A stretch of 64,000 nt of DNA from Pseudolabrys sp. GTDB taxonomy: Bacteria > Pseudomonadota > Alphaproteobacteria > Rhizobiales > Xanthobacteraceae. The stretch is from the NCBI GenBank assembly GCA_026125895.1, contig JAHCKG010000007.1, positions 1 to 64,000 of the forward strand. Direction: 5' to 3'. The position numbers and the translations under genes are program-made. How positions within the stretch are numbered: position 1 is the first letter of the stretch; every line of letters begins with the position of its first letter. Below are positions 12,129 through 49,447 of the stretch, piece by piece. Below the pieces are notes generated by a model that worked only from the letters and a program-made list of their open reading frames with translations, had not been told where the DNA came from and searched no databases.

Positions 12129-12176
12129 TTGCGCTGCTTCTTCACCCTCCCCTGGAGGGGGAGGGTGAAGCGCGCA
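12129..12176. repeat. palindromic repeat, family A, single hairpin
   Basis: A near-perfect palindrome whose core is CTTCACCCTCCCCTGGAGGG followed by GGAGGGTGAAG, with flanking TTGCGC-type arms extending the stem. It is the same outer hairpin that forms the ends of the DUF559 unit at 17781-18314. Confidence 0.75.
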
Positions 12177-12672: not shown

Positions 12673-12743
12673 GTAGCCCGGGTGGAGCGAAGCTTAACCC
12701 GGGAAGGTCGGCCCCGGATTTCGCTGCGCTTCATCCGGGCTAC
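12673..12743. repeat. palindromic repeat, family F (GTAGCCCGG ... CCGGGCTAC)
   Basis: Begins GTAGCCCGGG and ends with its complement CCGGGCTAC, with GAGCGAAGC/GCTGCGCTTC inner arms. This is the REP-like type widely seen in Rhizobiales. It lies just beyond the glyS stop and may serve as a transcription terminator. Confidence 0.75.
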
Positions 12744-14992: not shown

Positions 14993-15212
14993 CTTCTCTC
15001 ACCCTCCCCCTTGCGGGGTCGGCGTTCTTCTCCCCTCCCCCTTGTGGGGAGGGGTCGGGGGTGGGGGTCGTACGGCCGAATTGTCGGCCGGTACAAATCA
15101 ATATTCAGGAAGTCGTTATTCGAAAACGGCCGGATGCGAAAGCCTCAGCTTGCCACCCCCACCCCGCCGCCTTCGGCGGCGACCCTCCCCACAAGGGGGA
15201 GGGTAAAGAGAG
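14993..15212. repeat. palindromic repeat, family A, inverted pair
   Basis: Two copies of the family A palindrome in opposite orientation (about 15027-15066 and 15153-15206), plus a partial third at 14993-15023, flank about 86 bp without a gene. The right copy has the same order as the DUF559 unit end: GGGTGGGG box, CCGCC-TTCGG-CGGCG hairpin, then ACCCTCCCC/GGGGAGGGT. The pair looks like the ends of a unit without its gene. It fills the whole glyS-DUF2207 interval. Confidence 0.7.
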
Positions 15213-17780: not shown

Positions 17781-17836
17781 CTTCACCCTCCCCTGGAGGG
17801 GGAGGGTCGGCGCGCGGAGCGCGCCGGGGTGGGGTG
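17781..17836. repeat. left inverted repeat of the DUF559 unit (family A)
   Basis: The outer 29 bases, 17781-17809, are the exact reverse complement of 18286-18314. Next come a variable hairpin (GGCGCGCGGAGCGCGCC) and a GGGGTGGGGTG box. The DUF559 reading frame runs through this repeat and stops in it at 17783. Confidence 0.9.
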
Positions 17837-18253
17837 GACAGACGACCGCGAAGTCCGCGCGTGCCTCATCGCAATCACCTCACCGTCCAACTCGCCGTAT
17901 AGAGCGGCATAGATTGCCTCCAGCACGCCTTGGATGTCTTGAGTTACATCGTTGTTCCAGAAGCGGAGCACACGATAGCCCTCGCCTTCGAGCCATCGCG
18001 TTCGCTCGCGATCACGAATCAAGACCGGGCCCTCGCCATGCTGCGAACCGTCAACTTCGATGACGAGATGCGCCGCCAGACAAGCAAAGTCGATTATGTA
18101 ATTTCCCAGAGGGACTTGGCGGCGGAAGTGAGTGCCGCGCGTCTCGAGGCGACGGAGATGACGCCAGAGTATCGTTTCGGCTTCGGTCGCATTGCCGCGC
18201 AAGCGCCGTGCCGACGCGCGTTTGAACGTGCTGATTGGCGGACGACTTGCCAT
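17783..18253 (-). CDS. DUF559 endonuclease-domain protein inside an inverted-repeat unit
   Basis: A 156-residue single-domain protein of the DUF559 family, a PD-(D/E)XK-type fold related to Vsr very-short-patch repair endonucleases. Visible core: ATEAETILWRHLRR, FRRQVPLGNYIIDFACLAA (catalytic Asp), LVIEVDGSQH (Glu/Asp) and RVLRFWNNDV. The last 20 residues (TPARSARRPSPSRGG region) are encoded by the left inverted repeat. The start is seven bases inside the right repeat, whose GGGGTG box may act as ribosome binding site. The unit sits between glyQ and lemA and looks like a compact inserted element; target and activity are unknown. Confidence 0.88.
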   Translation of the reverse strand: MASRPPISTFKRASARRLRGNATEAETILWRHLRRLETRGTHFRRQVPLGNYIIDFACLAAHLVIEVDGSQHGEGPVLIRDRERTRWLEGEGYRVLRFWNNDVTQDIQGVLEAIYAALYGELDGEVIAMRHARTSRSSVHPTPARSARRPSPSRGG

Positions 18254-18260
18254 CGCAGAT

Positions 18261-18314
18261 CACCCCACCCCGCCGCCTTCGGCGGCGACCCTCCCCCTCC
18301 AGGGGAGGGTGAAG
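18261..18314. repeat. right inverted repeat of the DUF559 unit (family A)
   Basis: Mirror copy of 17781-17836: CACCCCACCCC box, a different hairpin (GCCGCC-TTCG-GGCGGC type) and the 29-base outer arm 18286-18314, identical to the complement of the left arm. The box and arm are conserved while the hairpin between them differs. Confidence 0.9.
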
Positions 18315-35175: not shown

Positions 35176-35242
35176 GGCGCTCGTTTTGATCCCTCCCCGA
35201 AGACGAGGAGGGATAAGCCAGCAAATCAATAAAGAACGCCGC

Positions 35243-39867: not shown

Positions 39868-39981
39868 GTGTCCCGGACGCGGTGCAGCGTGTAACGCTGC
39901 GCCGCAGAGCCGGGACCGTTTAACATGTGGCGGTCCCGGGTCGGCAGCGCACCACTTCGCGGTGCGCTGCGCCCGGGACAA
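39868..39981. repeat. palindromic repeat, family D, copy 2
   Basis: Starts GTGTCCCGGACGCGGTGCAG and ends GGTGCGCTGCGCCCGGGACA, each half being a hairpin (for example GCAGCGTGTAACGCTGC). Same layout as 25629-25755 and 55813-55934. Confidence 0.85.
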
Positions 39982-47017: not shown

Positions 47018-47134
47018 GCCCCCTCTCCCCTTGGGGGAGAGGGTTGGGGTGAGGGGGCAAGTGACTTTCGATAGTCAGTAACCCCTCACCCGGCCCGCTT
47101 CGCGTGCCGACCTCTCCCTATGGGAGAGGTGAAG
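47018..47134. repeat. palindromic repeat, family A, bipartite
   Basis: CCCCCTCTCCCCTTGGGGGA hairpin, GGTTGGGGTGAGGGGG box, a 24-bp spacer, CCCCTCACCCGG box, a variable hairpin (CGGCCCGCTTCGCGTGCCG) and CCTCTCCC/GGGAGAGG followed by GAAG. It has the same order of parts as the element inside mutY and lies between two convergent genes. Confidence 0.75.
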
Positions 47135-48148: not shown

Positions 48149-49447
48149 CTAGTCTAGCGCAGCGGCGAGCACTTTGCGCATGACATTCGGCAGGGCTTCA
48201 TCGCGCAAATGCGCGACCTCAGCCCAGCGCGCGCCGTTCGGTGCCTTTGCGGTCTTCGGCACCTGTGCGACGAACACGGTGAGCGCCAGCGGAAAATGCG
48301 TGAAGACGTGCGTCACTTCACCGGGCAGCTTGCGCCACTTCGCTTTGGCGAATTTCGGCGCGGCGTCGAGCGCGCTTCCGACATCGAAATCGTGCGACCA
48401 GTCGCTGCCGGGCACCTCTGTCATGGCCCCTAACAGGCCCTTCTCCGGCCGCTGGCGCAGCAACACCCGGTTATCCGCCCGCAGCACGACGAAGGCCGCG
48501 CCGCGCCGCAATCTGCCTTCGCGCTTGGGCGCCTTGCGCGGATAGGTCTCCTGATCGCCGCGCGCGCGGGCGACACACTTGTCGTTCCACGGACACAGCG
48601 CGCAGGCCGGCTTCTTCGGCGTGCAGATGGTGGCGCCGAGATCCATCAGCGCCTGCGCGAAATCGCCGGTGCGCGATTCCGGCATCAGCGAGGTGGCCAG
48701 CCGCTTGATCTCCGGCTTGGCCGCCGGCAGCGCCTCTTCTACCGCGAACAGCCGCGTCACCACGCGCTCGACATTGCCATCGACCGGCACCGCCGGCAGA
48801 TCGAAGGCGATCGAGCCGACCGCCGCCGCGGTGTAGTCGCCGATGCCGGGCAGCGCGCGCAACGCCTCCATGTCATCCGGAAATACGCCGCCATGGCGTT
48901 CGACGACGGCAATGGCGCAGGCATGCAGGTTGCGGGCGCGCGCGTAATAGCCGAGCCCGGCCCAGGCCCGCAGCACGTCGTCGAGCGGCGACTGCGCCAG
49001 CGCCTCCACCGTCGGCCACTTTGCCAGAAACTTGGCGTAATAGGGCCCGACCGTCTTCACCGTGGTCTGCTGCAACATGATCTCGGACAGCCACACGGCA
49101 TAAGGCGGCGTACGCTCGCCCTTGCGCGCGCGCCACGGCAGCACGCGCCGGTGGCGGTCGTACCAGGCGAGCAGAGCTTGCGAATTAATAGATGGCCAGG
49201 CGTCGTGCTCGGAGCTTCCCCTCCCCCCATAGGCGAGCGGACGCTCGCCGTTCGGCGAGCTATGAGGGGGAGGGTTAGGGAGGGGGGTATTTTTCTTGCT
49301 CAGAGCTTGTCGCTTACCCCCCTCCCGGCTCGCTACGCTCGCCGACCTCCCCCTCAAGGGGGGAGGTGAAGAAGAGACGTCGTGCTCGCCTTCTGCGACG
49401 CAAATTCCGGTTGTCTTTCTGCTTCGCTTGCGCGCTGCTACGTTCAT
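48149..49447 (-). CDS. mutY: A/G-specific adenine glycosylase with in-frame repeat insertion
   Basis: Removes adenine mispaired with 8-oxoguanine. The catalytic core is complete: LSEIMLQQTTV (Glu), helix-hairpin-helix LPGIGDYTAAAVGSIA and VDGNVERV (Asp), the [4Fe-4S] loop with CTPKKPACALCPWNDKC, then a NUDIX-like C-terminal domain with HVFTHFPL. The only in-frame ATG is 49447, giving 432 residues, of which 59 near the N-terminus come from a palindromic element (49212-49388). Without it the length would be 373, normal for the family. Other starts would need TTG inside the element or ATT. Confidence 0.88.
   Translation of the reverse strand: MNVAARKRSRKTTGICVAEGEHDVSSSPPPLRGRSASVASREGGKRQALSKKNTPLPNPPPHSSPNGERPLAYGGRGSSEHDAWPSINSQALLAWYDRHRRVLPWRARKGERTPPYAVWLSEIMLQQTTVKTVGPYYAKFLAKWPTVEALAQSPLDDVLRAWAGLGYYARARNLHACAIAVVERHGGVFPDDMEALRALPGIGDYTAAAVGSIAFDLPAVPVDGNVERVVTRLFAVEEALPAAKPEIKRLATSLMPESRTGDFAQALMDLGATICTPKKPACALCPWNDKCVARARGDQETYPRKAPKREGRLRRGAAFVVLRADNRVLLRQRPEKGLLGAMTEVPGSDWSHDFDVGSALDAAPKFAKAKWRKLPGEVTHVFTHFPLALTVFVAQVPKTAKAPNGARWAEVAHLRDEALPNVMRKVLAAALD
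49201..49388. repeat. family A element inside mutY, flanked by 11-bp direct repeats
   Basis: CGTCGTGCTCG occurs at 49201-49211 and again at 49378-49388. Between them is a bipartite family A element with CCCTCCCC boxes, a GCTCGCTACGCTCGCC hairpin near the right end and a CGCTCGCCGTTCGGCGAGC hairpin near the left. The distance between repeats is 177 bp, a multiple of three. Confidence 0.85.

Follow-up and report, generated by a model that had tools for sequence, protein, structure and literature searches.

RAYT proteins are HUH (Y1) enzymes that act on GTAG-tagged hairpins. BoxC/PIT/TM repeats (TM, intrastrand triplex motif) have been known since the 1990s and are reported from more than 260 genomes, with no settled function, and Escherichia coli K-12 carries 23 TMs, with five inverted pairs and raised instability around them (PMC4666352). 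In the sections of that work available here, the E. coli motif formed a triplex in vitro, formation in vivo was not seen, no mobility gene was found in the surroundings of TMs, and the term "nuclease" stands at the start of a word 0 times (PMC4666352). Among the titles and abstracts of open-licence papers, none was found that links the DUF559/COG2852 nuclease family with these repeats.

The locus described here lies in the window, which is the whole analysed stretch of 64,000 nucleotides from a draft genome (G000) of 4.52 Mb, 82% complete and with 5% contamination. Its ends are perfect inverted repeats, as the first-pass annotation had observed: the left arm, a palindrome at 17781..17809, is the exact reverse complement of the right one at 18286..18314 over 29 nt. 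The left palindrome, CTTCACCCTCCCC-TGGAG-GGGGAGGGTCG, would provide the C-rich strand and the G-rich complement of a triplex motif. Inside it follow a private hairpin, which fills the stretch from palindrome to box (17808..17826), and the box GGGGTGGGGTG (17826..17836, forward strand). The right arm repeats this order, with a box GGGGTGGGGTG on the reverse strand (18261..18271), 7 nt upstream of the DUF559 ATG, and a private hairpin unlike the left one in sequence (18271..18287); the hairpin stretch varies from unit to unit. A hairpin and a box inside each arm had been described correctly, with the refinement that the box is no motif of its own: together with the palindrome it suits an intrastrand triplex, of which it would be the third strand.

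Between the arms, and reaching into the left one, lies the gene for a DUF559 nuclease of 156 amino acids (17783..18253, reverse strand). It was said to start seven bases inside the right repeat and to stop inside the left one, and the positions agree: the ATG stands 7 nt past the right G-rich box, the TGA falls inside the left palindrome, and the C-terminal tail of the protein is encoded into the left arm. Upstream of lemA the sequence reads GGGTGAAGGAAGAAACC-ATG, so that the arm end of the unit abuts a candidate ribosome binding site.

The unit stands out in the window as a whole. A search for exact inverted pairs of at least 14 nt, separated by 30-600 nt, found 25 nested hits; of these, the longest twelve all come from the DUF559 unit or from a gene-less unit of the same kind at 15033-15203. 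Near-palindromes of the consensus CCCTCCCC-N-GGGGAGGG match 13 times against 0.14 expected, several of these matches being one-base shifts of a single palindrome. Long inverted repeats at 12673-12743 (GTAGCCCGGGTGGAGCGAAGC..) and 39869-39980 (TGTCCCGGACGCGGTGCAGC..) apparently belong to other repeat families.

The protein matches PF04480 with 128.4 bits (gathering cut-off 20.6, E 1.3e-37). In a Foldseek search with its AlphaFold model (mean pLDDT 77.5), the nearest fold is 3hrl, a DUF559 protein of Neisseria (6.7e-08), followed by the homing endonuclease I-Bth0305I (3r3p, 3.6e-05), and Vsr is less close (1vsr, 1.3e-02). Across 43 sequences, E25, D54, E65, D67 and H71 (numbering leaves out the start Met) do not vary, and by analogy they are likely active-site residues. 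Fold and conserved acidic residues together characterise the protein as a PD-(D/E)XK, Vsr-like nuclease with predicted activity. The C-terminal tail is mostly disordered in the model, with residues 121-148 and 153-155 of 155 under 50; the C-termini that the earlier reader described as resembling the palindrome do exist at many loci, where DUF559 tails read PTPDPSPQRGGEK or PSPxRGEG. The DUF559 core differs from its ortholog in the congener G231 by dN 0.063 and dS 0.284, and LemA in the same comparison by dN 0.053 and dS 0.374, which indicates that the gene has been kept under purifying selection in this one species pair.

The nature of the arms emerges from the relation between palindrome and box. 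The box mirrors the palindrome's G-rich half, each A of which is answered by T or A, as in GGGAGAGGG with GGGTGAGGG, GGGAGAAGG with GGATGAGGG, and GGGGAGG with GGTGGGG. This relation is what the antiparallel purine rule demands of an intrastrand triplex, where a C-rich strand and its G-rich complement are joined by an antiparallel mirror sequence as third strand, with G set on G and either A or T on A; on reading, the window arms fit it as well. Of 117 palindromes, 81 have a perfect third strand towards the gene and 28 have one facing away from it; among 117 shuffled controls there is 1. Palindrome and box covary, since perfect fits drop from 73 of 99 arms with their own inward sequence to 19.2+-3.4 when these sequences are swapped among loci (maximum 28 in 200 draws). 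The triplex rule and this covariation identify the arms as motifs of the BoxC/PIT/TM kind, as far as that kind is described in the available part of PMC4666352. Across the class the arms are mostly of the style CCCTCTCCC-loop-GGGAGAGGG or CCCTCCCC-loop-GGGGAGGG, followed by a hairpin or a few bases and then by the G-rich box.

DUF559 genes are associated with such arms in cis well beyond this locus. Among 192 alphaproteobacterial genomes, PF04480 is matched in some form in 63 and over its full length in 46. Bracketing was scored by the highest-scoring inverted match without gaps between the 250-bp flanks of the gene, for all 78 loci outside G000 with E <= 1.5e-25 plus the five of G000 itself; weaker matches, from 1.2e-17 upwards, consisted of fragments or of stretches within long proteins and were left out, and 3 of the 83 loci were dropped as clipped. 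The 80 remaining loci reach scores of at least 12, 14, 16 and 20 in 66, 57, 48 and 39 cases, against 219, 38, 6 and 1 of 5591 control intervals of equal size slid over the same regions; 14 of the 80 score under 12. An exact C/T palindrome with a stem of at least 7 lies on at least one side of the gene in 72 of 79 loci, on both sides in 47, and, with a stem of 7, on neither side in 7, and controls have it in 28 of 2604 windows. In the named set, those 80 of 314 loci from species genomes whose proteins are nearest to the window protein, with 2 clipped loci dropped, scores of at least 16 are reached by 37 of 50 alphaproteobacterial loci, 19 of 25 others and 3 of 3 unplaced ones, and by 6 of 1561, 5 of 705 and 0 of 68 controls, respectively. 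The loci outside the Alphaproteobacteria belong to gamma- and betaproteobacteria, Chloroflexi, Gastranaerophilales and delta-type records; several of these far taxa are MAGs, so single placements are to be taken with care. Four Aeromonas loci score 12 or less, and partial DUF559 genes between intact arms also exist (L187 and L188; G012 and G128). The enrichment of DUF559 genes between palindromic arms elsewhere, which had been proposed as a check, is strong in the alphaproteobacterial set, in the named set and in the C/T palindrome test.

Chance association is ruled out by the sliding-interval controls (6/5591 vs 48/80) together with the reversed-pattern control described below. An artefact of assembly would be conceivable in a draft of this completeness and contamination, but a second assembly has the unit at the corresponding site with 87% identity, and the class-wide controls speak in the same direction, so that chance or artefact can be discounted almost entirely.

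The source genome holds five DUF559 matches, and as read from the flanks all five are enclosed by inverted palindromes, which fall into about four sequence types. One of them (G000:C1:431277-431591; L005, L030) carries an in-frame TAG and is still found between arms. Exact ACCCTCCCC-N5-GGGGAGGGT sites number 34, the reversed control pattern 0, and many of these sites pair in inverted orientation, 97-110 bp apart, without a gene. The gene-less units run from palindrome through private hairpin and box to a spacer, and then on in mirror image. In the genome's own regions 16 pair units were read, and the spacer, parsed for 15 of them, measures 18-25 nt in 13. Ten spacers of one subfamily are related to one another (-1.1 vs -4.6+-0.46 shuffled; ten of the 13 units of the subfamily after setting aside two with long spacers and one unparsed, ends trimmed), which makes the gene-less units diverged copies. 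Hairpins differ among units that have identical palindromes. Two LemA paralog matches with identical scores, located on separate contigs (G000:C35:8453-8959 and C48:55262-55768), suggest a duplicated stretch in the draft assembly.

Palindrome abundance follows the presence of DUF559 from genome to genome. Counted with a single fixed pattern, five or more palindromes turn up in 32 of the 46 alphaproteobacterial genomes that have a full-length DUF559 and in 5 of the 146 that lack it (Fisher p 2e-20, shared descent ignored), two of the latter five holding DUF559 fragments; among genomes of at least 3.4 Mb the counts are 27 of 36 and 1 of 46. The same pattern gives 21 of 27 versus 10 of 159 in 186 other Proteobacteria (p 3e-15, shared descent ignored), and 48 of 59 versus 5 of 54 in a second alphaproteobacterial sample (43 of 51 versus 5 of 38 in genomes absent from the first). 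Shared descent is ignored in all of these counts, within-family contrasts excepted: in the 16 families whose members differ in DUF559, palindromes are more numerous with the gene in 12, fewer in 2 and tied in 2, where 14 of the 16 discordant families gave 11/2/1 and f29 (15 vs 1) and f66 (0 vs 0) bring the total to 12/2/2. The pattern misses differently spelled arms in a few genomes, as seen at their loci.

The first-pass annotation had likened the unit to RAYT/REP systems, which does not hold as far as seen: no match to the Y1 (RAYT) transposase family PF01797 was found in the 82%-complete source genome. Over the 192 genomes Y1/RAYT showed no link with the palindromes either (9/44 vs 28/148), and these two results together rule out RAYT as the mobiliser.

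It is also conceivable that TMs arise and are spread by replication slippage, recombination or another enzyme, with DUF559 merely carried along or tolerated between them. The coupling of arms and gene is loose, as described below, and there are palindrome-rich genomes without full-length DUF559: G020, G119, G170, G014 and G124 in the first alphaproteobacterial sample, G458 (154 copies), G388 (82), G277 (71) and six more outside the class, and, judged by family search in the second sample, G360 (37), G429, G431, G444 and G450. In 15 palindrome-rich genomes without full-length DUF559, a search with the window protein gave only fragments in 3. Against such a passenger role stand the bracketing of 48 of 80 DUF559 genes compared with 6 of 5591 other equal intervals, the strong across-genome association in separate samples, and the fact that the palindromes are unexplained by RAYT; on balance it is unlikely.

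In G458, G388, G426 and G277, which have many triplex-type palindromes, the window protein finds no DUF559 match; the first three share a family with the DUF559-bearing, palindrome-rich G440, G370 and G501. G272, without full-length DUF559, has 27 palindromes and 6 control copies, and four genomes of one genus (G412, G445, G468 and G499) have 8-25 reversed control palindromes, G-rich half first, and 0 forward ones, possibly a separate repeat family. E. coli, among 14 control genomes, gave no PF04480 match, though YcjD of K-12 is annotated as DUF559, so the family search may miss members.

The ycjD gene of E. coli K-12 has TMs on its downstream side only and, among the matches listed, sits at one site in E. 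coli. A fabI-ycjD-sapF query (L292) is covered by at least 80% in 3363 of 5426 E. coli genomes, and in strains that carry eefRABCD this cluster occupies the place of ycjD, according to the available part of PMC12817139. The fabI-sapF locus offers a natural set with and without ycjD. A rough tally of further matching places, made in 59 of 60 listed E. coli rows, gave medians of 3 (37 with) and 1 (22 without); it is given no weight, since it assumes two places for a split locus and follows phylogroups.

In Caulobacter, the DUF559 protein VsrA is needed for the SOS response on loss of a cytosine methylase, and the available part of PMC12907096 reads this dependence as VSP repair. The same observations could also be read as those of a selfish nuclease checked by methylation. 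If DUF559 were a very-short-patch repair enzyme of the host and the TMs merely regulatory or terminator signals around its gene, the SOS dependence of VsrA and the purifying selection on DUF559 would be accounted for. The recurrence of inverted TM brackets in distant taxa would not, nor would the 146 of 192 alphaproteobacterial genomes without a full-length match and the polymorphism of units at their sites; moreover, the available text of PMC4666352 cites no promoter or terminator activity of TM motifs. Such a host-repair role is very unlikely.

Units are polymorphic in presence and absence at syntenic sites, as seen in a comparison with congeners over 17-80 kb of synteny. The gene-less pair at 15032..15204, found by the inverted-pair scan and with a spacer of 88 nt, has no counterpart in G231, G195, G201 and G197, and G209 has a full DUF559 unit of another arm type there. 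The gene-less pair at 47021..47129 belongs to the CCCTCTCCC/CCTCTCCC type, and G231 carries a differently typed unit at that spot; the gene-less pair at 49218..49366 is absent from the orthologous site in G231 and G195. The solo palindrome at 35191..35212, with one mismatch, corresponds to a pair unit in G195, G201, G208 and G209 and to a degenerate solo in G231, as expected from a deletion between two CCCTCCCC copies. A second solo palindrome (12145..12165), of the TGGAG type seen in the DUF559 unit, stands at a site where G195 has no unit.

The DUF559 unit itself is common to the window and G231 (L189) at the same site, with 87% nucleotide identity. Elsewhere the glyQ-lemA interval holds a different DUF559 unit in G201 (protein 58% identical where LemA is 83%), a unit about 600 bp before lemA in G197, palindromes without a gene in G203, a degenerate pair in G199, another gene in G210, a half-palindrome scar in G195, and none in G209 and G208. 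An insertion fixed between glyQ and lemA with no empty sites had been named as evidence against a mobile element; the empty sites and the different DUF559 unit in congeners contradict it.

Among congeners, each of the sites c, d and f is used repeatedly by units of different types, and site c is occupied by a short unit, a DUF559 unit or no unit, which is compatible with homing. No target-site duplication or clean junction was found at sites c, f and g in congeners, where the closest contrasts, at about 87% identity, involve replaced sequence, and the unit-less allele at c and g is replaced or too diverged. At site f, G209 has a GTCCCGGGCGC..-type stretch in place of the triplex unit. The pair Sinorhizobium K101/Ak57 was considered as a clean insertion and rejected, being in fact a DUF559 gene truncated down to a palindrome.

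These sites bear on a transposase-like alternative, in which the nuclease would excise and insert the TM pair from single-stranded or cruciform DNA, like RAYT on REPINs, and not via break repair. The pair is the unit in gene-bearing and gene-less forms alike, the gene-less spacers are related copies, and presence is polymorphic, all of which this alternative would explain. It is nevertheless rather unlikely: the domain has about 110 residues and no strand-transfer partner was found here, hairpins differ between units with identical palindromes, no target duplication was seen, and the different unit types at sites c, d and f fit replacement better.

Gene and arms are inherited together, in a real but weak manner. 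The arm-type test started from 127 loci with arms, of which 19 with differing labels and 13 unlabelled were set aside and 94 stand in the tree; the labels are crude, the CCCTCCCC palindrome of the window being placed in the CCCCTCCC class by its G-rich half. Both arms of a unit are of the same type at 82 of 101 loci, against 24.5 when shuffled. On the 94-leaf protein tree, arm type needs at least 35 changes (shuffled mean 52.5, minimum 41 of 300), and in 46 of 94 cases, versus 22.4 expected, a protein shares its arm type with the closest protein from a different genome. Contrasts within genomes, which are not independent, run 48 to 18; per protein, 17 are nearer their own arm type in every contrast, 4 nearer the other, and 4 mixed or tied. 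Tree and within-genome contrasts together indicate that gene and arms travel together in part and that arms are often swapped. The claim that the gene and its ends form one package is borne out in part: the arms of a unit share a type and the coupling exceeds the shuffled level, and arm type changes at least 35 times on the tree. Partial coupling of this kind is more in keeping with copying by repair from one TM unit to another than with a sealed transposon, though it is no proof.

It is somewhat probable that DUF559 and its inverted TM arms constitute a compact selfish element, with the gene-less pairs as non-autonomous forms. The element would consist of a single-domain DUF559 gene (PD-(D/E)XK, Vsr/I-Bth0305I-like) packaged between two inverted TMs; TM pairs that lack the gene and have a spacer of around 20 nt would be its non-autonomous form and lone TMs deletion products. 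We infer as the most likely mechanism that a TM, once folded or paired, is recognised by the nuclease, which cuts the DNA at that point; repair from another TM unit would then copy that unit, with or without the gene, into the break. The third strands lie about 20 nt apart in a gene-less pair and about 400 nt apart in a DUF559 unit, so that the target would be lost once the gene has entered, as happens in homing. The element would spread in a homing-like way, inside a genome and from one genome to another, with TM sequences kept alike while hairpins and spacers drift.

The arrangement recurs in many unrelated bacteria, which makes the DUF559 nuclease the best candidate for the enzyme that spreads TM repeats. 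The wider proposal is more tentative, a serious possibility: DUF559 may be the missing mobiliser of TM/BoxC/PIT repeats across bacteria, a homing-type nuclease addressed by the triplex or its hairpin and not by a linear site, which spreads itself together with gene-less repeats. If true, it would assign a function to the widespread but so far uncharacterised DUF559 domain and would suggest that a non-B DNA structure can address a mobile nuclease. The link between DUF559 and TMs makes the spread of the repeats and the instability of their sites a bench question in E. coli or a soil bacterium.

The unit shares with the TM/BoxC/PIT repeats of PMC4666352 a C-rich palindrome with a mirror third strand, an intergenic position and inverted pairs, as in E. 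coli K-12; the available part of that source has no nearby mobility gene, whereas here DUF559 lies inside inverted TM pairs in many taxa. Caulobacter VsrA has the same domain, and was read as acting in VSP repair of methylated motifs in the available part of PMC12907096, which makes no mention of TM flanks. REP/REPIN-RAYT systems are alike in having a small enzyme gene flanked by inverted palindromes and many gene-less inverted pairs (16 here), but the source genome has no Y1_Tnp match and the palindromes do not track Y1. As in pairs of MITEs and insertion sequences, there are gene-bearing units, deletion derivatives and gene-less units; compared with an insertion sequence, the unit has the inverted ends, while its sole gene is DUF559, no known transposase, and sites c, f and g show no target duplication. 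In Sinorhizobium K101, a unit of the ATCTCCCCC..GGGGGAGAT type, which we take to be a RIME element of rhizobia, stands beside a DUF559 gene with the same order of palindrome, hairpin and box. Free-standing homing genes such as that of I-Bth0305I share a near fold, a single small nuclease and site-dependent presence and absence with the unit described here, which differs from them in that its putative target is a dispersed TM pair and that the gene carries inverted arms of its own.
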